Positions 9,213-21,596 of a stretch of 64,000 bases of DNA are shown in pieces. The stretch's first letter is position 1. Each line of letters starts with the position of its first letter. The translations under genes were made by a program, and so were the position numbers. The stretch is from Parapedobacter koreensis (lineage in GTDB: Bacteria > Bacteroidota > Bacteroidia > Sphingobacteriales > Sphingobacteriaceae), in assembly GCF_900109365.1 (NCBI RefSeq), contig NZ_FNZR01000007.1, positions 124,001 to 188,000 of the forward strand, given 5' to 3'. The notes below the pieces were generated by a model. The model ran no database searches and was not told where the DNA came from. It worked only from the letters and a program-made list of their open reading frames with translations.

Positions 9213-9890
9213 TCACTCGCGCACCACCACTTGTATGCTATCGGTAAACAACGTCGATAGGTACTTGTTTTTTACGGATCGGCCCAACATGCCCAGCACC
9301 GGCACACCGTTTACATAATGCTGGAGGTAATACGAACCGGTGTAACCCGCCTGTTGCAAAAACTGGACCATTGCCTGCAAATCTTCCACACTGATCAACT
9401 CGCTGTGCACGGTGGTACGCACCTCAAAGGGCACCCCGGCTGCCATAAGCAGTGACAAGCTCGCTTCAAATGCAGGAAACAAATCCGAATGGGTAATGGC
9501 ACGGTACCGGCCCGCAAGTGCTTTGAAATCAAGTGCCACGTAGTCCACCAATCCCTGCTTTGCCAGTGCCGCCAGCACGCCCGGCCGCGAACCGTTGGTA
9601 TCTATTTTTATGTCAAAACCATATTCCTTTGCCGTCCGCGCCAGGGACACGATATCCGCATGCAAGGTACACTCACCGCCGCTCAGCACTACACCTTGCA
9701 GCAATCCCTGCCGTGCCCGCAGGAACCGCAAGGCATCGGGTATGCCTATGCGGCCCTTGCCCAGCACAATATCCGGGTTATAGCAATAGACACAGCGCAT
9801 ATTGCACCCCGCAAACCATAGGATGCAGGCGGTCTTGCCGGGATAATCCAGCAAGGTGAAGGGCGTGATGCTATAGATGGGCGTAGGCAT
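9213..9890 (-). CDS. nrdG: Anaerobic ribonucleoside-triphosphate reductase activating protein
   Basis: Radical SAM enzyme that uses a [4Fe-4S] cluster and S-adenosylmethionine to generate the glycyl radical on NrdD. The cluster motif is CNMRCVYC near residue 29 (CxxxCxxC), preceded by FTLLDYPGKTACILWFAGC, typical of this family. SGGEC further on matches the SAM-binding glycine motif. The frame opens with TTG at 9902, but the ATG at 9890 (MPTPIYSITPF) is the natural start. It overlaps the end of the small glycyl-radical ORF by about 20 nt, implying translational coupling in an nrdD-small ORF-nrdG operon. Confidence 0.93.
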   Translation of the reverse strand: MPTPIYSITPFTLLDYPGKTACILWFAGCNMRCVYCYNPDIVLGKGRIGIPDALRFLRARQGLLQGVVLSGGECTLHADIVSLARTAKEYGFDIKIDTNGSRPGVLAALAKQGLVDYVALDFKALAGRYRAITHSDLFPAFEASLSLLMAAGVPFEVRTTVHSELISVEDLQAMVQFLQQAGYTGSYYLQHYVNGVPVLGMLGRSVKNKYLSTLFTDSIQVVVRE

Positions 9891-10053
9891 CTTTCTCGGC
9901 AAAATGCCGGCGTTGCCCGTGTTCGCCCTTTTTACCGATGTTGAAGCTTTCCACGGGGCGATGGTAGCCCATCACGCGGGTGTAAACCAAACATTTACTC
10001 CGTCTTTCCTGGTTTTGTTGCAAAATCAGGTCATCTTGCTGTTGTATGTTCAT
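9871..10053 (-). CDS. Separate glycyl-radical domain of class III ribonucleotide reductase
   Basis: 60-residue protein whose core, KCLVYTRVMGYHRPVESFN then GKKGEH, matches the C-terminal glycyl-radical segment of NrdD (RVxGY, Gly29 here). The upstream large NrdD ORF lacks any such motif, so the radical-bearing glycine appears to sit on a second polypeptide, comparable in principle to YfiD for pyruvate formate-lyase. It has its own ATG, overlaps the nrdD end by 23 nt in another frame, and overlaps nrdG. Its N-terminus (DDLILQQNQ) resembles the linker at the end of NrdD (DELILATHQ). A +1 frameshift, programmed or a sequencing error, would fuse the two and is the main alternative. Confidence 0.82.
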   Translation of the reverse strand: MNIQQQDDLILQQNQERRSKCLVYTRVMGYHRPVESFNIGKKGEHGQRRHFAEKDAYAHL

Positions 10054-12154
10054 GGGTTATTTGTTTTTGATGAGTCGCTAAAATAAGTTCGTCACATTTC
10101 GGACAGTATTCGTGTTCACCGTTGAGGTAGCCGTGTACCGGGCAGATGCTGAATACCGGTGTCACGGTGATATAGGGCAATTTAAAGTTGGAGATGACTC
10201 CACGCACGAAATTGCGACAGGCATCGGGCGAACTGACCCGTTCGCTCATATACAGGTGCAGCACCGTACCTCCGGTGTATTTGCATTGCAAATCGTCCTG
10301 CAACAGCAGCGCCTCAAACGGATCTTCCGTATAATCCACCGGCAGCTGCGAACTGTTGGTATAGTAGATATGCTCGCCATAGCCCGCTTGCAGGATATCG
10401 GGGAACCGCTTCTTATCTTCCTTGGCAAAGCGGTAGGTTGTTCCCTCAGCAGGTGTAGCTTCCAGGTTATACAAATTGCCTGTACTTTCCTGAAATTCGC
10501 GCATACGCCTACGTATATGCTCCAGTAGTGCGGCGGCAAAAGCGATGCCGCTGTCCGACGTGATGCAATCCCTGTCATCCGTGAAATTCCGGATCATCTC
10601 ATTCATGCCGTTGACGCCAATGGTCGAAAAATGATTGCGGAAATGGGGAAGGTACCGTTTGGTATAAGGATACAATCCCCTGTCGTACATTTCTTGGATA
10701 AACCGTCGTTTCTTCTCCAGAGTGGATTTGGCGATGTCCAGCCAATGATCCAGTCTCCGGTAGATCCCCTCCTTATCGCCACGGTACAGGTAGCCCAGGC
10801 GGGCCATATTGATGGTTACCACACCGATACTGCCCGTCATCTCGGCACTGCCAAATAAGCCATTACCGCGCTTGAGCAGCTCCCGCAAATCCAGTTGCAG
10901 CCGGCAGCACATGCTTCGTACGGCATTAGGCTTATAGGCCTCTGGGTTTTCCACCCGATTGCCCGATGTATCCGTCATGTACTGGCTCCCTACGAAATTC
11001 TGGAAATACGAAGAGCCTATTTTGGCCGTATTCTCAAATAACAAGGTCGCGTTTTCACTCTCCCAGTCGAAATGTTCCGTGATGTTCACGGTAGGAATCG
11101 GAAATGTAAAGGGTTGGCCATTGGCGTCGCCTTCCGTCATCACAGTGTAATAGGCCTTGTTAATCATATCCATCTCCCGTTGGAAATGCTTATAACATAA
11201 ATCTTCCAGTGACATCACACCCCTGCGGCGCGCCAGGTGCAGCAGTTCGGCATCCCGCGCATCGGCAAATAGGTGCTTATCTTGTTTGGTTGGGATCTGC
11301 TCTTTCAAATCATCCGGTACGTTCCAGTCCAGCGTAATGTTGGTGAAAGGTGACTGCCCCCAACGTGCAGGCACATTGAGGTTGTACACAAAACTGCGCA
11401 CGGCTTTCAGCACTTCGACGTAGGGCAAACGATCTTTAAATACATACGGCGCTAGGTACGTGTCAAATGAGCTGAATGCCTGCGCACCGGCCCATTCGCT
11501 TTGCAGGATACCCAGAAAATTGGCCATCTGGCCCAGTGCCTCCCTGAAATGGGACGGCGGCCGGCTTTCCACCCTGCCACGCACGCCATTGAAGCCTTCG
11601 TTGAGCAATACACGCAAGCTCCACCCCGCGCAGTAGCCCGTGAGGCAGTCGAGGTCGTGGATGTGGATATCACCATTGCGATGGGCATATCCCTCTTCCT
11701 TGCTATATACATTATCCAGCCAATAGTTGGCAATGATTTTCCCTGCCGTGTTGTTTACCAGTCCAGCGTTGGAATACGAGGTATTGGCATTGGCATTGAT
11801 ACGCCAGTCCGTCTGCCGGATGTATTCCTCGATGGCCTGCGTGCTGTCAACATACGTCGTATCCTCATTAAAGCCACCGATGTGTTCGCGCTGGAGTTTA
11901 CGTGTGTGGCGGTACAGCATAAACGAACGCATGGTTTCGAAATATTGTCGTTCATAAAGCACCTTTTCGATATGGTCTTGTATCTCCTCCACCGCCCACG
12001 TGTCCTTACCGTCCAATACGTGCATCACTGCTGCAAATACACCGTTGTCCGGTGGCATGGAAACACTTTGGAACCCCTTTTCTATCGCGTCCCTGATTTT
12101 GTAAGGCATGAATGGCTCGTAAGCCCCGTTTCGTTTGATGACGTATTTTTCCAT
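10031..12154 (-). CDS. nrdD: Anaerobic ribonucleoside-triphosphate reductase, large part without the glycyl-radical segment
   Basis: Class III ribonucleotide reductase making dNTPs without oxygen. An ATP-cone domain occupies about residues 1-90 (KRNGAYEPFMPYKIRDAIEK), followed by the NrdD barrel. Near the C-terminus is the zinc-site region CPVHGYLNGEHEYCPKC. The 707-residue chain then ends in ATHQKQITHEHTTAR without the expected RVxGY radical motif, which is on the next, overlapping ORF. I chose the ATG at 12154 (MEKYVIKRNG). The promoter box lies about 30 nt upstream with a palindrome in the -33 position, pointing to anaerobic activation. Confidence 0.93.
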   Translation of the reverse strand: MEKYVIKRNGAYEPFMPYKIRDAIEKGFQSVSMPPDNGVFAAVMHVLDGKDTWAVEEIQDHIEKVLYERQYFETMRSFMLYRHTRKLQREHIGGFNEDTTYVDSTQAIEEYIRQTDWRINANANTSYSNAGLVNNTAGKIIANYWLDNVYSKEEGYAHRNGDIHIHDLDCLTGYCAGWSLRVLLNEGFNGVRGRVESRPPSHFREALGQMANFLGILQSEWAGAQAFSSFDTYLAPYVFKDRLPYVEVLKAVRSFVYNLNVPARWGQSPFTNITLDWNVPDDLKEQIPTKQDKHLFADARDAELLHLARRRGVMSLEDLCYKHFQREMDMINKAYYTVMTEGDANGQPFTFPIPTVNITEHFDWESENATLLFENTAKIGSSYFQNFVGSQYMTDTSGNRVENPEAYKPNAVRSMCCRLQLDLRELLKRGNGLFGSAEMTGSIGVVTINMARLGYLYRGDKEGIYRRLDHWLDIAKSTLEKKRRFIQEMYDRGLYPYTKRYLPHFRNHFSTIGVNGMNEMIRNFTDDRDCITSDSGIAFAAALLEHIRRRMREFQESTGNLYNLEATPAEGTTYRFAKEDKKRFPDILQAGYGEHIYYTNSSQLPVDYTEDPFEALLLQDDLQCKYTGGTVLHLYMSERVSSPDACRNFVRGVISNFKLPYITVTPVFSICPVHGYLNGEHEYCPKCDELILATHQKQITHEHTTAR

Positions 12155-12317: not shown

Positions 12318-12647
12318 TCAAATCAACCCCAATTGCGCCTTGCCCGATTCCGAAATCCGATCGTAATTCCATTCGGGTTCCCATACCAGATTTATTTCGA
12401 CCTCCCTATCCGGAAAACAAGCCTTCAATACATTTACCACCCCGCTTTGGATGGCATCGCCCATCGGGCAATAGGGTGTGGATAAGGTCATGGTGACCAC
12501 CGCCTTGCCGGCATCGGAAAAATCGATTCCGTACAACAATCCCAGATCGATGATGTTGACGGACAGCTCCGGATCGATGACTTGCATCAGCGCGGTCTGC
12601 GCCTTCACGTATTCTGCCACATAAGGGCTGCTAAGTGATAGTTCCAT
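12318..12647 (-). CDS. DUF59/MIP18-family metal-sulfur cluster assembly protein (PaaD/SufT-like)
   Basis: Small protein of the DUF59 family, which helps load iron-sulfur clusters. The N-terminal half carries the typical IDPELSVNIIDLGLLYGIDF and VTMTLSTPYCPMGDAI, with the single conserved Cys. The frame is open to 12692, but MELSLSSPYV at 12647 is the natural start and gives 109 residues. It overlaps the end of the upstream oxidase-like gene by 17 nt and is the last gene of the nos/Ric cluster. With Ric and the DUF2249 proteins it suggests an iron-centre maintenance module, which is inference. Confidence 0.85.
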   Translation of the reverse strand: MELSLSSPYVAEYVKAQTALMQVIDPELSVNIIDLGLLYGIDFSDAGKAVVTMTLSTPYCPMGDAIQSGVVNVLKACFPDREVEINLVWEPEWNYDRISESGKAQLGLI

Positions 12648-13922: not shown

Positions 13923-14768
13923 TTATCCCGTCCGTACTACCAATAGTTGTACGTCCCCTTCCCCAACCTCATGGATATGGATAGCATAGGGCTGTCCCTC
14001 CAATGCGTCCAAGAGGTGGAGCGGTACGCGCTTGTGCCGCACGTATAACGCTTCATCCGATCCCAACGTCGGGAGCGTCTCCAAAACCGCTTGCATGGGC
14101 TGGGGCATGGGCAGGTGCCGTACATCCAGGCGCTGCAACCGGCTTTCAGGATACAGGTTGATTATCCGGACAAACGAATCAGCATCGTGCATCACCACAG
14201 GGCTTGTCGCTGGCTTACGTTCAGTTTCCCTGCCTAACACGCCTTTGAAAAACCACGTATAGTGCAGATCGCTGCTTTTCGTATCGACAGTGCACTCCGC
14301 CCCTTTCTTCTCCAGCAGATGAATGAGGGGATAAGGGACGAACGAGTTGATGATACACAACAGATGGCCCGGTGGTAAGGCACCGTACCGTTGCAGGATC
14401 GCTTTTAAGGGGTCGTCGCCCGAGTCGATAAGCTTCCGCACATCGAAATAATCTTTGTGGTTATCATCGGCGGCCGTAAGCCATTCCGACAGTTGGGATG
14501 CCTGTAATAAGGCAGCGGGAGACGTGTTACCGTCCGTGCTGTCCTCCACGAAAGCAAATCCCAAAGGCTCCAATACCTGCCTGAAATCCACTACCGAACA
14601 TCCCGCCATGGCGGCTGCTTCCGCTATCGTCACCCTCGGAGCCATCAACCTGCGCAGTATGGGGTTTCTCAACTTGCGCAATGGTTTCGCCAGTCCGGCA
14701 ATGGCCTCAATGCTGGCATCATTGGCCCTGATAAGCTCCGAAATCCTAGTATGTTGGCTAATGATCAC
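13923..14768 (-). CDS. DUF1858 plus tandem DUF2249 protein
   Basis: 281-residue soluble protein. An N-terminal DUF1858-like helical domain (about residues 5-70, ISELIRANDASIEAIAGLA) is followed by a first DUF2249 domain (YFDVRKLID to YTWFFK, about 105-175). A second DUF2249-like domain is at the C-terminus (LDVRHLPMPQPM to GDVQLLVVR, about 210-280). Both domain types are of unknown biochemical role and recur next to Ric and NO-detoxification genes. It begins 1 nt after the stop of the DUF2249-Ric gene and so is almost certainly cotranslated with it. Domain boundaries are my estimate. Confidence 0.75.
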   Translation of the reverse strand: MIISQHTRISELIRANDASIEAIAGLAKPLRKLRNPILRRLMAPRVTIAEAAAMAGCSVVDFRQVLEPLGFAFVEDSTDGNTSPAALLQASQLSEWLTAADDNHKDYFDVRKLIDSGDDPLKAILQRYGALPPGHLLCIINSFVPYPLIHLLEKKGAECTVDTKSSDLHYTWFFKGVLGRETERKPATSPVVMHDADSFVRIINLYPESRLQRLDVRHLPMPQPMQAVLETLPTLGSDEALYVRHKRVPLHLLDALEGQPYAIHIHEVGEGDVQLLVVRTG

Positions 14769-14769
14769 C

Positions 14770-15711
14770 TTATCCGTGTGCTAAGCGTTCCTTCTCCAGC
14801 GTGATTGTCTTGGGAAACAGGATGTTATTTTCCAAATGAATATGCTGAAACAGATCGTTCTCAAACGCCTTAATGCGGTCATACAGGTAAGTATACGAAT
14901 TGCACGCATTGGCCGGCAATTGGTAGTCCCTTGTCAGCGTACGGAATCTGCGCAATTCACCGCCTGCCGATTCATGTTCATCTTCCATGCATTTTACCAC
15001 TTCGCTCGCCTGCAATGATACATCCTCCGCGCCCACTTCAAGCTTTTTAATGATGGGAAACAACGTCTGTTCCTCCTTTTGGATATGGCTATATAAATCT
15101 GCCATGAACGCATGCACACCTTCGGCCAAGGCCAGCAACTCGTGGTGTTCGACGCCGTGGCGTAAAGCCACCTTGTCTGCGAGTTGTTCGATAATGGGAC
15201 CCTGCTCGCGAATATAGCGATGGTGCACATTGCAGATGTAATCAGCGAGGAAACCGGGATTCCAACGGTCGAAATCGTGCCCGGCTTGTTCCGTTTTAAT
15301 TTCGGCGGCATGTTCCAGTTCCTGCCGCACCAACTGTTCGTCCAGTCCTACCGCATCGGTTGCCTCTTTCAGTGTTTGCTTCCCACCGCAGCAGAAGTCG
15401 ATGCCCAGCTTCTTGAACACCTTCGCTTTCCGCAGGTCCTTGGCGGCAATCTCGCCCACGGTTTCTTCATGGGTTTCTGCTACAGGTTTGGCAATCCGCA
15501 CGCGCCACCATTCCGGGCCGGCCTCCAGGTATTCCCATGTAAAAAAATTCCCCCGCTCACCCAGTAGTTGGTAGTATAGCGGCTTGGGATCATGGTCGTT
15601 CAAGATGACGAACGCTTCTCCCGGCTCCAATGCATCGAAGTGCTCGAAAATCGTGGGATGTTTCAGCCGGGGTTCAATCCGGGTGACATTCAGTAATGCT
15701 GTTTTTATCAT
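14770..15711 (-). CDS. DUF2249-Ric fusion: di-iron repair of iron centres protein (ScdA/YtfE family)
   Basis: 313 residues. The N-terminal DUF2249 domain (about 15-75, ending in FTWEYLEAGPEWWRVRI) is fused to a complete Ric/ScdA/YtfE protein. The ScdA_N part carries GIDFCCGG near residue 103. A hemerythrin-type four-helix di-iron domain follows, with CNVHHRY near 160, HIQKEEQTLFP near 209, a DEH motif and HIHLENNILFP near the end. Ric proteins repair iron-sulfur and di-iron centres damaged by nitric oxide or oxidants. It follows nosY by 103 nt without an obvious promoter, so it may be the distal part of the nos transcript. Confidence 0.9.
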   Translation of the reverse strand: MIKTALLNVTRIEPRLKHPTIFEHFDALEPGEAFVILNDHDPKPLYYQLLGERGNFFTWEYLEAGPEWWRVRIAKPVAETHEETVGEIAAKDLRKAKVFKKLGIDFCCGGKQTLKEATDAVGLDEQLVRQELEHAAEIKTEQAGHDFDRWNPGFLADYICNVHHRYIREQGPIIEQLADKVALRHGVEHHELLALAEGVHAFMADLYSHIQKEEQTLFPIIKKLEVGAEDVSLQASEVVKCMEDEHESAGGELRRFRTLTRDYQLPANACNSYTYLYDRIKAFENDLFQHIHLENNILFPKTITLEKERLAHG

Positions 15712-15727
15712 GACGTTATTTGTTTAA

Positions 15728-15760
15728 TTCGGCTGTCAGCTATCAGCGTTCAGCCCCCTG
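15728..15760. repeat. Short degenerate repeat between nosY and the Ric gene
   Basis: GGCTGTCAGCTATCAGCG followed by TTCAGCC contains several interleaved TCAGC/GCTG copies and can fold. It resembles the low-complexity spacers common between Bacteroidota genes. Function unknown. Confidence 0.4.
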
Positions 15761-15814
15761 ATTTATTTATTATCTACTGTCTGTTGCTTAACATTTAATA
15801 TCTCCTGTTTCACC

Positions 15815-16582
15815 TCACAAATCCTTCCGCTTAAAAAACCTTATGGAAAACCAAAAAGGCAGCACGGTCCATAATACCAGTATTGTTGCCGTAATCGCCA
15901 TGCCCCCATCCGTGCCAAAAAACTTGCGGAATATCGCACCCGTATAGCCCATCATGGCCGACACATCCACCTGCAATAGAATCAGTATCCTGCTGGTGTC
16001 TATCGGGTTGAGCATGGATAACGCTACCATGCCGTTTTCGATGGGATAGTCCGAAAACTGGAACAGCAGGAACAGCACCACTGCATCAAACAATAGCGCA
16101 AAATACAGCCACAGGAGGATGGACAGCCCGATGCCCCTTGCTTTGTCGCGCACCCGTACAGTGGCCCACAGGGCCACCGACACAAAAATCAGTGACAATG
16201 CAGCGCCGCAGAGCATCAGCATCACACCCGATGCGGTGGCGGCATAAAGCACCACCGGTATCCCGACTCCCACCATAAACGCCAACGACATGGCCACGGC
16301 CAGTCCGACGAAGATGCTGATCCATATCGTATCCCGCCGCAACGGCTGGCTCACCAGCAGTTCGATAAACTCCGCGCTGTTGTACAGATACACCGTGGAA
16401 AAGAGGAGGCTTACCAACGGCACCACAAAGAGCACGATGTTCAGCAAGCTCACCACCCCCTTGCCGGCACTGTCTTCCATGCTAAACACACTGACCGATA
16501 GCACCGCTAACACCGCCGTGTACACCATGATGGTACGGCTCCTCAGCAGGTCGGCTATCACATATTTGATAATCTTGTTCAT
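15815..16582 (-). CDS. nosY: NosY, ABC transporter permease for the nitrous oxide reductase maturation
   Basis: 255-residue integral membrane protein with six predicted helices of the ABC-2 permease type. It pairs with the ATPase NosF and the periplasmic NosD to supply the sulfur species and copper assembly needed for the CuZ centre of NosZ. The start overlaps the nosF stop by 4 nt (ATGA), as expected for a coupled pair. The sequence alone would only give an ABC permease; the assignment as NosY rests on the gene order nosL-D-F-Y. Confidence 0.92.
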   Translation of the reverse strand: MNKIIKYVIADLLRSRTIMVYTAVLAVLSVSVFSMEDSAGKGVVSLLNIVLFVVPLVSLLFSTVYLYNSAEFIELLVSQPLRRDTIWISIFVGLAVAMSLAFMVGVGIPVVLYAATASGVMLMLCGAALSLIFVSVALWATVRVRDKARGIGLSILLWLYFALLFDAVVLFLLFQFSDYPIENGMVALSMLNPIDTSRILILLQVDVSAMMGYTGAIFRKFFGTDGGMAITATILVLWTVLPFWFSIRFFKRKDL

Positions 16583-17307
16583 AGCGTTCCCTCCATCAGT
16601 TCGTGTGTAGCCATCACCTGCGCGATCGCCTTTGATAACCGGTCGGCCCCCGTTTCCGCTTTGAGCGCTTGCAGCGATTTATGGAACAGCGGCTTACCGT
16701 CCTGCATGTAGATGACCTCCGTCACCAGATCGTCCAAATCGCTCAATACATGCGAGGTAATGACAATCAACTTATCCTGTTGCTTCTCGGCACGGATTTT
16801 ATCTTTCAGCAATTCAGTCGAAAGCGGATCCAGCCCGGCCGTCGGCTCATCAAGGATGAGCACCTCGGGGTTGAACATAAAAGCCAGGCAGGCGCTCACC
16901 TTCTGACGCGTCCCGCCGGAGAGCGTACGCATCCGTTTATCCAGCATGCCATCCAGCCCAAAGGCAATGAAAAGGTGGTTGTCCAATGCCGATTCCGGCA
17001 TTTTACGGATGTCCTTCATCATATTCAATACCTGGCCGATGGTCATGTTTTCGGGGTATCGGCCCATCTGCGGCATGTAGCCGATCTGATTGCGGTACCG
17101 CCACTCATGGGCGATGTCCTTGCCTTTGAAGGTAATGTTGCCCGACTGCGGCACAATCATGCCCAGTATGGCTTTAATCAGCGTGGTCTTGCCGCTACCA
17201 TTGGGCCCGATGAGCGCAATGCATTGCCCCCCTTCGAGCGTAAGCGAAACGTCGTCGAGCACATGGAGCTTTCCGAACTTCTTAGACAGGTGCTGGATGG
17301 TAATCAT
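16579..17307 (-). CDS. nosF: NosF, ABC transporter ATPase for NosZ maturation
   Basis: 242-residue cytoplasmic ATPase. The motifs are all intact: Walker A GPNGSGKTT near residue 34, Q-loop region IGYMPQMGRYPE, ABC signature LSGGTRQK near 129, Walker B VLILDEPTAGLDP near 150, and switch His in ITSHVLSDL. It energises the NosDFY complex. The gene overlaps both neighbours by 4 nt. Confidence 0.94.
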   Translation of the reverse strand: MITIQHLSKKFGKLHVLDDVSLTLEGGQCIALIGPNGSGKTTLIKAILGMIVPQSGNITFKGKDIAHEWRYRNQIGYMPQMGRYPENMTIGQVLNMMKDIRKMPESALDNHLFIAFGLDGMLDKRMRTLSGGTRQKVSACLAFMFNPEVLILDEPTAGLDPLSTELLKDKIRAEKQQDKLIVITSHVLSDLDDLVTEVIYMQDGKPLFHKSLQALKAETGADRLSKAIAQVMATHELMEGTL

Positions 17308-18554
17308 AGTGCCACAGGTTGCATCAACGGATAGTCGTCTTTCAGGTTTTCGGGTGTGAGGCTGGGCAATACCCGCTCGGTACGGTCGAGCAGCGTGACC
17401 ATGAAGCTGCGGAACAGCAGCATGGCCATGGGATATTTCTCCACCACCATCGAATACAGGCTGACGGGCCGGTAAGGCACGTCGCCCTCTTTATCGTTAT
17501 CCAGGTCGTATCCTTCGTATTTATCCCAATAGTTGCGCTCAAAGGTATTGAGCACCAGCGAACCATTGGTGGCTACGTCAAAGGTGTTGTGGATGAAATT
17601 ATTCCGTGTCACGGTGTTGTCCATGCAACTGGCCTGTATTTTCAGTGCCCATCCGTTGTTTTCAAATCGATTGCGCTGGATACGGATACGGTTGCTCCCC
17701 TCCATGAGGATGCCCGTCGTATTCTTGGCAAATGTATTGTCCGCGATGTGGCTGTCGGTAATCTCCTTGAGCAGCAGTCCATACGCAGCATCGCCCCAGT
17801 TTTCGTTGAACACGTTGTGCTCCATCCGCACGTGCTTGGTGTACATCACCGCCACGCCGGCCCCATTGCCGGTAAACGTATTGCGGTAATAACCGTTGTC
17901 ATGCGAAAACATGAAATGCAACCCATAGCGGACATTCCGGTGCGATTGGTTGCCCTGCACATCGGTATGTGTCACAAATTCGAGGTAGATGCCGTCCCGG
18001 TGCCCCGTGATGGTGTTGCCTGCTATGTCCAAGCGATCGCATTTCCAGCCGTGTATCCCGTTGCCGATCAATTGTTCGGCCTTGCCATAGGCCACCAGCC
18101 GATTGTTGCGGATGGTGCAATTGCGGGCATTTTGCAGGTAAATGCCGAAGAAATTATCGTCCAGCACATTGTCCGTTATCATCACGTGATGGGTGTCGTA
18201 AATCTTGACACCCGCCATGTCTTTCATCGACGAATGGCCGGAACGGCAGATGGTAAACCCTTTGATGACAACATACGGGGCATGCACGGACACCGGCTCG
18301 TATTTTTGCTCCCCGTCGATGACCGGATTGCCCACACCCACGAGCATCAGCCGTTTGCGGATGCCGATGTTGCCTTCGCGGTACACGCCGCCGTCTACCT
18401 GAATGGTATCGCCGTCGGCTGCCAGCTCCAGGGCTTTGGTGATGGTGTGCACAGCATGTTGCTTGCCTACCTTGATGGTAGCGGCACGGGGCATGCCGAC
18501 TACCAACAGGCAAACACACAAACTCAACACATAGTTAACCCATCCGTTCATCAT
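17304..18554 (-). CDS. nosD: NosD, periplasmic beta-helix copper/sulfur-processing protein
   Basis: About 416 residues. A Sec signal peptide (VNYVLSLCVCLLVVGMPRAA) is followed by right-handed parallel beta-helix repeats of the CASH/PbH1 type, seen as a ladder of xxNxIxxN motifs (DNVLDDNFFGIYLQNARNCT and many more). It docks on NosFY to deliver what is needed for the CuZ site. The open frame begins with TTG at 18584 inside nosL, but the tandem ATGs at 18554 and 18551 directly precede the signal peptide and leave an 8-nt gap after nosL. The long antisense reading frame over this gene is a codon-usage shadow. Confidence 0.94.
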   Translation of the reverse strand: MMNGWVNYVLSLCVCLLVVGMPRAATIKVGKQHAVHTITKALELAADGDTIQVDGGVYREGNIGIRKRLMLVGVGNPVIDGEQKYEPVSVHAPYVVIKGFTICRSGHSSMKDMAGVKIYDTHHVMITDNVLDDNFFGIYLQNARNCTIRNNRLVAYGKAEQLIGNGIHGWKCDRLDIAGNTITGHRDGIYLEFVTHTDVQGNQSHRNVRYGLHFMFSHDNGYYRNTFTGNGAGVAVMYTKHVRMEHNVFNENWGDAAYGLLLKEITDSHIADNTFAKNTTGILMEGSNRIRIQRNRFENNGWALKIQASCMDNTVTRNNFIHNTFDVATNGSLVLNTFERNYWDKYEGYDLDNDKEGDVPYRPVSLYSMVVEKYPMAMLLFRSFMVTLLDRTERVLPSLTPENLKDDYPLMQPVAL

Positions 18555-18562
18555 GTTTATTC

Positions 18563-19009
18563 TTATTTCCACAAATCGTCCCAAGCGATTACCTCGCCCC
18601 CATATTCACTACGGGCAGCTTCCAAATCGACCTCGTTGACAAAGGCGGCAATATCGCCCCGCATGGGACTTTTAAGCGATTCGCTTTTCAGCAAAAACAG
18701 CTGTTCTGCCGGCAGCAGCTTGCCGTCATTGGTATAATCCGGCAGGTAAAATGCCGCAACATCTTCGCGGGATACACTCCCCGCCTGTATAAAGGCAACC
18801 ATGCACTGCGCATCGTCAAAAATATAGGCACGACCTTTCTTGGTGGCCAATTGGGTACCGAACCGTGCATCGCTCACCGTCATTCGGCAATGTGCACACT
18901 GGTCCTTGCCGAAGTTGATGGGTTTGGGACCATCGCTGCCGCAGGCCAGTAACCCAAAGGCCAGCAACAACACCGCCCTTATCGGACCGAACATCGTCTT
19001 GTTTCTCAT
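18563..19009 (-). CDS. nosL: NosL, outer-membrane or periplasmic copper-chaperone lipoprotein
   Basis: 148 residues. A lipoprotein signal (LLLAFGLLACGS, lipid Cys23) is followed by the NosL copper-binding motif DQCAHCRMTV near residue 36. The rest fits the NosL fold (FDDAQCMVAFI, YLPDYTNDGKL). NosL donates Cu(I) to NosZ. Its ATG overlaps the stop of the preceding membrane protein gene by 4 nt. Confidence 0.93.
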   Translation of the reverse strand: MRNKTMFGPIRAVLLLAFGLLACGSDGPKPINFGKDQCAHCRMTVSDARFGTQLATKKGRAYIFDDAQCMVAFIQAGSVSREDVAAFYLPDYTNDGKLLPAEQLFLLKSESLKSPMRGDIAAFVNEVDLEAARSEYGGEVIAWDDLWK

Positions 19010-19602
19010 GATTTCAAACTATTTTTAGCCAGCCGCCACTCGGCAAAGACACAATAGGCAAGCAGCACACCGCAGACCACGAATATCCAGCCGCCCACGG
19101 CCGGTATGGAAAACGCACCGAAGTTGAGCAGCTGCTTGAACCCAATCAGCGGGGGTTGGTACGCCATGCCTGGTACCTTGATGGGTGCATTGGGGTCGAG
19201 GTGGTGGCCGTAATCGTACTCCCACATCCAGAAGTCGACCATGGCGACAATGCCGAAAAGCAGGAATGCCACAAAAAGCATGTTGACAAGTTTCCTGCGC
19301 CCGACGGCCCCCACAGCGATAAATGCCAGCCCATACGCACCGATGATGTAGGGCAATACCGTAAACTCGATGAAATCATCGGCGTGCAGCGTCCGCATGC
19401 CGATGTAATGGTTGAGCCCGTTGATGATATCCACCTGCCCATCCAGCTTATAGCTGTAAATGAGTAGTTCAAGCCCTTCGGGATACTGTGCGGCATCCAG
19501 CTCGATGCGCCAGATCGGCAGGGCAATCACGGCAAACAGGGCCAGACCGCATACAATCAGTAGGGCTCTGTGCAGTTTGATGATGACATCGTTGCGTTTC
19601 AC
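19006..19602 (-). CDS. NosB-like membrane protein of clade II nos clusters
   Basis: 198 residues with four predicted transmembrane helices (about 12-32, 83-102, 108-127 and 167-188) and a conserved-looking periplasmic stretch with DFWMWEYDYGHHLDPNAPIKV. Clade II nos clusters typically carry a membrane protein of this size directly after nosZ, called NosB, with an essential but poorly defined role. I assign it by position and topology. It starts 11 nt after nosZ and overlaps nosL by 4 nt. The histidine- and tryptophan-rich loop could bind metal, which is speculation. Confidence 0.75.
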   Translation of the reverse strand: MKRNDVIIKLHRALLIVCGLALFAVIALPIWRIELDAAQYPEGLELLIYSYKLDGQVDIINGLNHYIGMRTLHADDFIEFTVLPYIIGAYGLAFIAVGAVGRRKLVNMLFVAFLLFGIVAMVDFWMWEYDYGHHLDPNAPIKVPGMAYQPPLIGFKQLLNFGAFSIPAVGGWIFVVCGVLLAYCVFAEWRLAKNSLKS

Positions 19603-19613
19603 GGTCTGTTCGT

Positions 19614-21596
19614 TTATTCCCCGGCAGACGGGTTCACACCGGTACTGAATGCAAGCTGTACATTACTTCCTTTGGGCGATACCCGCACATAACCCGACAT
19701 TTCCTGGTGCAGCGCACTGCAAAAGTCGGTGCAGTACATCGGGAATATCCCTGTACGGTCGGGCACCCATTTAAGCGTCTGCGTCTCGCCCGGCATCACG
19801 AGCAGCTCGCTGTTGCCCGCGCCCTTGATGGCGAAGCCATGCGGCATATCCCAGTCCTGCTCGATGTTGGTCACGTGGAAATACACCTCATCCCCCAGCT
19901 GGATACCCTCAATGTTATCCGGCGTAAAGTGCGACCGGATGGTGGTGAGGTAAACATGCACGGTATTACCGTTTCGTTCTACGCGGGCCTCGGATTCCCC
20001 CTTGGCGATATAAGGATGCTTGTTGGCATTGATGTCGTAGATTTTCACACTCCTGTCTTTAATCAGGTCGGCCGGAACTGCCTGTGCATAGTGCGGTTCG
20101 CCGATGGTCGGGAAATCCAGCAGCAGTTCCATCTTTTCGCCGCTGATGTCAAACAGCTGCGCAGCGTGGCAAAGCTCCGGGCCGGTGGGCAGGAAGCGGT
20201 CTTTCGTAATTTTGTTGTAAGCCACGAGGTATTTGCCATAAGGTTTTTTGGAGTTACCGCCGGCAACCATCAAGTGGCCAACGGAGTAATAGGTCGGCTG
20301 CCGATCGATCACTTCCAGTTTTTCGATGTTCCATTTTACAATTTCTGACGAAACAAAGAAAGAAGTATAGGCATTGCCCTTATCGTCAAACTCGGTATGC
20401 AAAGGACCCAACCCCGGCTTCTCTACCTCTCCGTGCAATGCCGATTCGTATTTTACAACAGGGATACCACCATACTGCTCTGCTTCAAAATCTTTATTAG
20501 CAATAGCATTCTGCAACTTATCGAAGCTGAAAACAGGAATTAAGGCGGCCAGTTTACCGCTTCCGATGATATACTCGCCCGTGGGGTTGACGTCGGTACC
20601 ATGCGGCGATTTCGGACAGGGAATCAAGTATGCCAGGTCTTCAAAATCGGCAACATCAAGCACTGTCACTTCCGTCTTGATTTCGGAAGTAGCCGAATGC
20701 GTCTCCTCGTTATACTTATTGTGGGCATACCGGACCGCTTGCTTCGTGCCCCTGCCGGCCTTGAAATATTCTTCGGCTTTTTTCCAATTGATCGCCAGGA
20801 TAAAATCCTTGTCATTTTGGGAAGCGCTTACTTCCAATAGCGTATGTGCCTGTTCAGAATTGTAGCAGCTGAGGAAAAGCCAACCGTTTGATTTACCTTT
20901 TCCGGCGCTGGACAAATCAAAATTCAATCCGGGGGTCTTCAACTGGAAGGCAATATCAAACTCGCCGGTTTCTTTGTCTACACGCACAAAGCTGATGTGT
21001 CCCTTGAAATTCTCCTTGTACGAGCTGATCGGCACATCGCCGCCCGGTCCGTCGGGCGGAACACTAAAACGGGTTGCTGCTATCACATACTCCGAGTTCT
21101 CGGTTGTAAACGGCGAACAGTGGTTGCCCCCGGTATTGGGAATCTCGATGATTTCGGCCGTGCGGTGAGTTGCCAGATCAATCCTTGCCAACCGCGGGGT
21201 ATTGTTGGAGTTGGCAAACATCCATTTGCCGTCTGGCATCCCGTCGGTAAACGACGCTTCGATGTGGTGCAGGTCGTCCCAGGGGATAAAACCATGCGAT
21301 GTCTCCAGCATGGGTTTGGTTTCTTCGCTGAATCCCCACCCTTTTTCGGGATCTACCGAAAACACAGGAATGACACGGAACAGCCGGCCACTTGGCAGGC
21401 CATAGACGCTCATCTGCCCACTGAATCCGCCCGACACGAAGTTGTAGAATTCGTCGTACTGCCCCGGCGGTACATACGTTCGTGCCGCGGCATTGCCGGT
21501 CACGGCACTTCCTGCCCCCCGGGGTTTGCAGGCGCTGAATGATATGGACACGACCATTGCGGCCAGCAACCATAATAGGTGTTTTCTTCGTTTCAT
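19614..21596 (-). CDS. nosZ: Nitrous oxide reductase, clade II (Sec-type, probable lipoprotein)
   Basis: Reduces N2O to N2, the last step of denitrification. The 660 residues begin with a Sec-type signal lacking a twin-arginine motif and ending in SFSACKP, so Cys23 may be lipidated. The seven-bladed propeller carries CuZ histidines such as His110 and His111 (DDLHHIEASFTDG, the clade II form). The C-terminal cupredoxin domain has the CuA motif CTDFCSALHQEM (Cys622, Cys626, His630, Met633), with an upstream DWDMPHGF. Electrons are probably supplied by the lipoprotein cytochrome c encoded 45 nt upstream. All catalytic motifs are intact, so it should be functional. Confidence 0.97.
   Translation of the reverse strand: MKRRKHLLWLLAAMVVSISFSACKPRGAGSAVTGNAAARTYVPPGQYDEFYNFVSGGFSGQMSVYGLPSGRLFRVIPVFSVDPEKGWGFSEETKPMLETSHGFIPWDDLHHIEASFTDGMPDGKWMFANSNNTPRLARIDLATHRTAEIIEIPNTGGNHCSPFTTENSEYVIAATRFSVPPDGPGGDVPISSYKENFKGHISFVRVDKETGEFDIAFQLKTPGLNFDLSSAGKGKSNGWLFLSCYNSEQAHTLLEVSASQNDKDFILAINWKKAEEYFKAGRGTKQAVRYAHNKYNEETHSATSEIKTEVTVLDVADFEDLAYLIPCPKSPHGTDVNPTGEYIIGSGKLAALIPVFSFDKLQNAIANKDFEAEQYGGIPVVKYESALHGEVEKPGLGPLHTEFDDKGNAYTSFFVSSEIVKWNIEKLEVIDRQPTYYSVGHLMVAGGNSKKPYGKYLVAYNKITKDRFLPTGPELCHAAQLFDISGEKMELLLDFPTIGEPHYAQAVPADLIKDRSVKIYDINANKHPYIAKGESEARVERNGNTVHVYLTTIRSHFTPDNIEGIQLGDEVYFHVTNIEQDWDMPHGFAIKGAGNSELLVMPGETQTLKWVPDRTGIFPMYCTDFCSALHQEMSGYVRVSPKGSNVQLAFSTGVNPSAGE

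Follow-up and report, generated by a model that had tools for sequence, protein, structure and literature searches.

Class III (anaerobic) ribonucleotide reductase (RNR) is known from studies of NrdD, a glycyl radical enzyme made of one chain, whose glycyl-radical domain (GRD) moves in and out. In Prevotella copri NrdD the GRD is described as residues 676–739, which hold both the zinc site and Gly711 within the same chain (PMC11226230). In one-chain enzymes this domain is reported to flip out for activation by NrdG (PMC12662201); dATP binding is reported to make it mobile in the P. copri enzyme (PMC11226230), and a Sci Adv abstract gives its position in StNrdD as unaffected. Here, we describe an nrdD locus of Parapedobacter koreensis in which the corresponding chain is encoded in two pieces, a long body and a 60-residue tail that carries the glycyl-radical loop. 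The locus lies in a stretch of 64 000 nucleotides (nt) of contig NZ_FNZR01000007.1, referred to below as the window.

Several described systems resemble this arrangement in part. NrdJa/NrdJb of Pseudomonas aeruginosa, a split class II RNR, likewise has a catalytic subunit made of two polypeptides, but is described as cobalamin-dependent and without a glycyl radical (PMC4520616, PMC4860495). YfiD/GrcA and Y06I resemble the tail in that the GRD constitutes a small protein of its own, with the activase of the target serving for its activation; these proteins, however, are reported to repair pyruvate formate-lyase (PFL), which has a GRD of its own, and they belong to a different family (PF01228; PMC8683613). 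The same source counts them as the only validated spare parts and allows that further glycyl radical enzymes may have such parts. The window tail is not a member of the PFL-type Gly_radical family and matches the NRDD family instead. RNR genes in pieces, such as nrdA-a/nrdA-b of Aeh1 and nrdD of phiAS4, were reported for 16 of 128 phage genomes, several of these cases being associated with introns, inteins or homing endonucleases; the accessible part of that account mentions no GRD-only piece (PMC3653736). Full-text searches of the literature turned up no account of an NrdD subunit consisting of the GRD alone; work from 1999 on Cupriavidus necator (Siedow et al.) and Pseudomonas (Jordan et al.) may mention the split.

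The body gene (10031..12154, minus strand) encodes 707 residues between an ATG at 12154 and a TGA ending at 10031; an upstream GTG, if used as the start, would extend the product to 722 residues. Its class III fold is evident from matches to Pfam NRDD (PF13597; 545 bits) and to the ATP cone (PF03477; 59.6 bits), and it scores 1077 bits against NCBIfam PRK08270 (ribonucleoside triphosphate reductase; cut-off 548). The best PDB sequence match was 8p23, which we take to be P. copri NrdD, and a profile of the tail gave no match among the PDB sequences. The body contains the ATP cone (residues 3–86; 11897..12148, minus strand), the barrel, the finger loop and the zinc site, and ends without a glycyl-radical loop. 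The finger-loop motif MCCR (residues 415–418; 10901..10912, minus strand), a motif described in PMC9669993, includes the candidate thiyl-radical cysteine. Both this motif and the CxxHx9CxxC site (Cys671, His674, Cys684 and Cys687; 10094..10144, minus strand) are invariant in a 19-row alignment that includes the window; by homology, the latter four residues would bind zinc.

The missing loop is found in trans on the tail (9871..10053, minus strand), a 60-residue protein with its own ATG, which carries YTRVMGYHRPVESFN and thus the sequence YTRVMGYHRP. Gly29 in YTRVMGY, encoded at 9967..9969 (minus strand), is the expected site of the radical; this residue and the core of the tail do not vary across a 23-row alignment in which the window is one row. 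Of the 562 positions of the Pfam NRDD profile, the body covers 2–528 and the tail 530–562 (the latter at 26.8 bits, barely above the cut-off of 26.2), so that the two pieces are complementary. The split form has the ATP cone, barrel, zinc site, RVxGY loop and NrdG in common with the one-chain P. copri enzyme (PMC11226230) and departs from it in a break of the chain that separates the zinc site from the glycyl loop. The body and tail genes overlap by 23 nt in different frames (10031..10053, minus strand), and the tail in turn overlaps by 20 nt with nrdG (9213..9890, minus strand; ATG at 9890, stop at 9213), which encodes the radical-SAM activase expected beside a class III nrdD (NCBIfam TIGR02495, 187.8 bits with a cut-off of 131, searched from 9887). 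In the whole 5.5-Mb genome the NRDD search matched these two pieces alone and the PFL-type Gly_radical search (PF01228) matched nothing, leaving the tail as the sole radical-glycine domain found; the genome has one large RNR subunit of family PF02867.

These observations lead us to propose, with high confidence, that the locus encodes a class III RNR whose catalytic subunit consists of two polypeptides, the small one being obligate. The 707-residue body would contribute the ATP cone, the zinc site and the barrel, in which the finger-loop cysteines lie; the RVMGY loop of the small subunit would enter this barrel, the two chains forming one complex. NrdG would generate the glycyl radical, presumably on Gly29, with the small subunit either free or docked, and, as happens in the one-chain enzyme, the radical would then move to the cysteine of the finger loop. 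Activity could also depend on the amount or the exchange of the small subunit, and the enzyme may supply deoxynucleoside triphosphates during anaerobic or denitrifying growth. A natural two-chain form of this kind would make radical loading, docking, exchange and allosteric control separable, using a swappable or labelled 60-residue partner.

The split is conserved well beyond the window. The tail was detected in seven of 60 relatives, all seven of which also have the body; the body itself was found in 34 of 399 genomes of the family, Sphingobacteriaceae. Thirty family loci were fetched, and in 29 of them the tail is a short open reading frame (ORF) of its own, the remaining one being fused (genome G070, locus L032). 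A tail-profile search at class level matched 11 of 395 genomes, in each case in an open frame of at most 85 residues, and the nine class genomes outside the family of the window in which the tail was found are all split, with the body just upstream. Of the 594 pattern matches listed from a collection of named records, 586 hold the tail, and 79 of the 80 loci kept are split; the nearest of these records belong to Parapedobacter. The eightieth, L103, was not counted as split since the contig breaks off 56 nt upstream of the tail and the body is not visible; this contig, from a metagenome-assembled genome (MAG), is titled Klebsiella pneumoniae yet carries a Bacteroidota-type tail, and is probably mislabelled or contaminated. 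The next ORF is NrdG-like in 137 of the 145 split loci, a set in which some genomes are counted twice. By these genome comparisons, the split is genuine, ancient and widely distributed. The earlier note on this DNA, made from the letters of the window, had read the locus as a true split that places the radical glycine on a small gene between a truncated nrdD and nrdG; its ORF coordinates and overlaps are confirmed and its proposal is borne out by the complementary profile coverage and by the relatives.

The arrangement is not limited to Bacteroidota. Plasmid searches returned 28 records with the window tail and 27 with the C. necator body; 16 regions were read, of which 13 are split and three fused. 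The split regions belong to C. necator H16, C. metallidurans CH34, Paracoccus, Bradyrhizobium (three), Shinella, Azospira, Aquabacterium, Sulfuricystis, Cereibacter, Thiothrix and Sulfuricurvum, and the fused ones to Acidiphilium, Actinomyces and Geoalkalibacter. All but one of the 16 plasmid loci have an NrdG-like ORF. In two regions, from Bradyrhizobium japonicum p2S06B (L204) and Thiothrix fructosivorans pTfr153 (L213), the body adjacent to the tail is itself disrupted, running over two frames, and lacks annotation; p2S06B carries a second, annotated body elsewhere (H27). The bodies of L203, L205, L206, L207, L211 and L213 match the profile only from about position 96–112 and, unlike that of the window, seem to have no ATP cone.

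Three explanations that dispense with an obligate small subunit were weighed against this background. A sequencing error or recent strain pseudogene, for which the short overlap alone speaks, is refuted by the genome comparisons and we give it practically no credence: the split is kept in independent genomes and the core of the tail is constrained. Among five Parapedobacter genomes the ratio of non-synonymous to synonymous differences (pN/pS) is 0.06 in the core (codons 18–52) and 0.28 in the N-terminal extension, so that by this measure the core is under strong purifying selection. Programmed frameshifting or stop read-through, which would restore a single NrdD chain, draws some support from the existence of fused relatives and from the 41 of 79 named split loci in which the two genes overlap by a few codons (4–92 nt). 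The tail, however, stands in frame 1, 0 or 2 relative to the body in 49, 18 and 12 of these loci, respectively, and the other 38 junctions are gaps of 5–1412 nt; the longest, in a Flavobacteriaceae MAG (L147), contains a 446-codon ORF that by eye encodes a secreted protein. With three frames, long gaps and an intervening ORF, no single mechanism of this kind can serve all junctions. In addition, a Met start occurs at about the same place in 22 of 23 tail rows, the 23rd having been trimmed one codon past its Met. We therefore regard a recoded single chain as very improbable, in agreement with the view of the earlier note that this is no simple frameshift, and the close relatives, 29 split and one fused, are indeed not all fused.

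It is also conceivable that the tail is a spare part that rescues oxygen-cleaved NrdD, as YfiD and Y06I are reported to do for PFL (PMC8683613), rather than an obligate subunit. The likeness to YfiD drawn at the outset is apt insofar as the tail is a detached GRD, and fails in that YfiD repairs an enzyme with its own GRD, whereas the NrdD body has none to lose. Given such a body and a genome with no second NRDD and no Gly_radical match, an obligate subunit is the likelier role and a rescue function appears improbable for the bacterial tail; the stand-alone GRDs of viral contigs described below fit that function better.

How the split arose is a separate matter, compatible with a two-chain enzyme. 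Partial duplication of the linker had been suggested by the resemblance of DELILATHQ in the body to DDLILQQNQ in the tail. This resemblance is visible in the window (p = 0.005 against shuffles), and locus L012 likewise gives p = 0.005, but it does not hold in general: across 105 unique pairs, five reach p < 0.05 and the median p is 0.34, which is the level of chance, and the mean score is 16.2 for own pairs and 15.4 for cross pairs. Moreover, just 4–12 residues separate the zinc site from the stretch xVY or xVW in the 15 fused loci. Origin by duplication is accordingly not sustained, and we hold it to be unlikely.

A phylum-level search gave 21 matches, 10 split and 11 fused, the latter (all 11 read) being more distant, with 48–55% identity to the body. 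For a tree of bodies, 133 different rows were thinned to 73 at 93% identity, five plasmid rows were added and L076 was dropped because of gaps, giving 77; removal of L125, L204, L160, L194 and L214 (gaps or long branches) left 72 bodies for a more careful tree. On this tree the label split or fused changes four times, at least three of these changes being forced by well supported branches. The fused G070 is nested among split bodies, with L028 (support 99/89) and with L025 and L027 (100/94); the fused Acidiphilium (L203) and Actinomyces (L206) bodies fall within a mainly split Pseudomonadota clade (99/93), where their exact places are less certain (89/48 and 71/85). Taken at face value, the tree indicates a single early split and three subsequent re-fusions, one of them in the family of the window, with the qualifications that other counts of gains and losses reach an equal total and that the tree program warns of long branches deeper down. 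The fused protein of G070, within a split clade, carries CPDCEDTKCLVYTRVMGY, both junction extensions being gone, and suggests that body and tail are able to form a single enzyme.

Several points weigh against an obligate two-chain enzyme or the evidence for it. One of the 30 family loci runs on a fused chain, so the split is dispensable for function, and eight of the 145 split loci have no NrdG by motif. The last eight codons of the tail are unconstrained (pN/pS of 1.0), and the pN/pS values come from 10 non-independent pairs of five congeners, with pS near saturation (0.64 in the core). An AlphaFold model of the body from the 19-row alignment was poor (mean predicted local distance difference test score of 57.9, predicted template-modelling score of 0.51) and unusable for docking.

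GRDs of the same type also occur on viral contigs. A tail-profile scan confined to IMG/VR contigs, with loci picked by the patterns YTRVMGY or ESFNIGK, yielded 50 loci (L151–L200). The GRD is a short ORF of its own in 44 of these (40 complete and four broken off past a conserved Asn), while the other six have no ORF by motif. Gly, Lys, Glu and Arg positions are invariant in the 40 and the Asn in the 44, and most of these positions are not part of the search patterns. In two of the 50 loci an NrdD body is found within 4 kb of the GRD; a second scan of 45 newly fetched viral loci found a body within up to 10 kb in two and an NrdG-like ORF in one. Whole records were searched for 33 of the 50, of which 32 match NRDD and two have a body, a further one, G1127, giving an extra weak match over 27 positions. 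As no contig is rated a near-complete genome, the missing nrdD is weak evidence. In three loci the neighbours are of phage type: in L156 (holin, CHAP endolysin, integrase) the GRD lies between the holin and endolysin genes, in L172 it overlaps an amidase gene, and L178 has a Mu portal, MuF and virion-morphogenesis proteins; the one neighbour protein tried in L176 gave no match. All six viral GRDs submitted to PHROGs match phrog_4132, to which no function is assigned, and tblastn searches of named phages with three GRDs returned zero, three weak and one records.

If real, these viral proteins would be spare parts directed at NrdD, and closer analogues of YfiD than the bacterial tail is; together with split NrdD, they make the spare-part idea directly testable. 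A broader and more tentative notion, which we put forward as a possibility that may well prove wrong, is that the GRD is an exchangeable module: an obligate subunit in denitrifiers of several phyla, carried alone by phages, mostly without nrdD, to re-arm or take over the NrdD body of the host, the bacterial split perhaps having begun when a mobile GRD replaced the built-in one. In L178 (3402–3990 and 4001–4108) an ORF ending near PDAERQPCEV and a subsequent ORF that by eye resembles an HNH endonuclease directly precede the RVMGY piece, as if the gene for the phage GRD were interrupted by a mobile intron at the position of the radical. In L191, L192, L193 and L195 the GRD frame stops right past the conserved Asn, possibly marking another insertion point.

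The split is partly present in existing annotation. NCBI labels the small gene nrdD in nine of the 13 split plasmid regions; L216 shares the product name without the gene name, and the gene is not listed in the annotation of L205, L207 and L212. On C. necator pHG1 the pair comprises WP_011154155 (`ribonucleoside triphosphate reductase') and WP_011154154 (a short `nrdD' of 66 codons); NCBI thus names the same two genes, and the feature tables shown make no remark on the split. The nrdD of C. necator H16, the organism treated in PMC2864759, is thus found in its split form. A PLoS One paper on CH34 gives NrdD as Rmet_5137 and NrdG as Rmet_5139, skipping 5138. In the CH34 locus (L207, an unannotated record) the tail lies between the body and nrdG, and we suppose that Rmet_5138 is the tail. 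A long ORF cloned alone as `NrdD' from such organisms would lack the radical site. For NrdD of P. aeruginosa (PA1920) a mass of 76 kDa is reported, which is close to that of a split body (PMC12284477).

Upstream of nrdD, the window contains a gene for an iron–sulfur assembly protein (12318..12647, minus strand; PF01883, searched as 12318–12632), followed by two DUF2249 genes and a nos cluster (13923..21596, minus strand; PF10006, PF12679, PF00005, PF05048, PF05573 and PF18764). The cluster comprises an ABC-2 permease, an ABC ATPase, NosD, NosL and a 660-residue nitrous-oxide-reductase protein (19614–21596), the iron–sulfur assembly gene and the DUF2249 genes lying between it and the nrdD operon. 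The split nrdD of C. necator pHG1 is close to a nitric-oxide reductase, a metal–sulfur assembly gene and DUF2249; the Sulfuricurvum region contains napA and the Shinella region nosL, and no such genes occur within the stretch read of other plasmid regions. Such nos-, nor- and nap-type neighbours, in the window and on some plasmids, make a role in anaerobic respiration likely.

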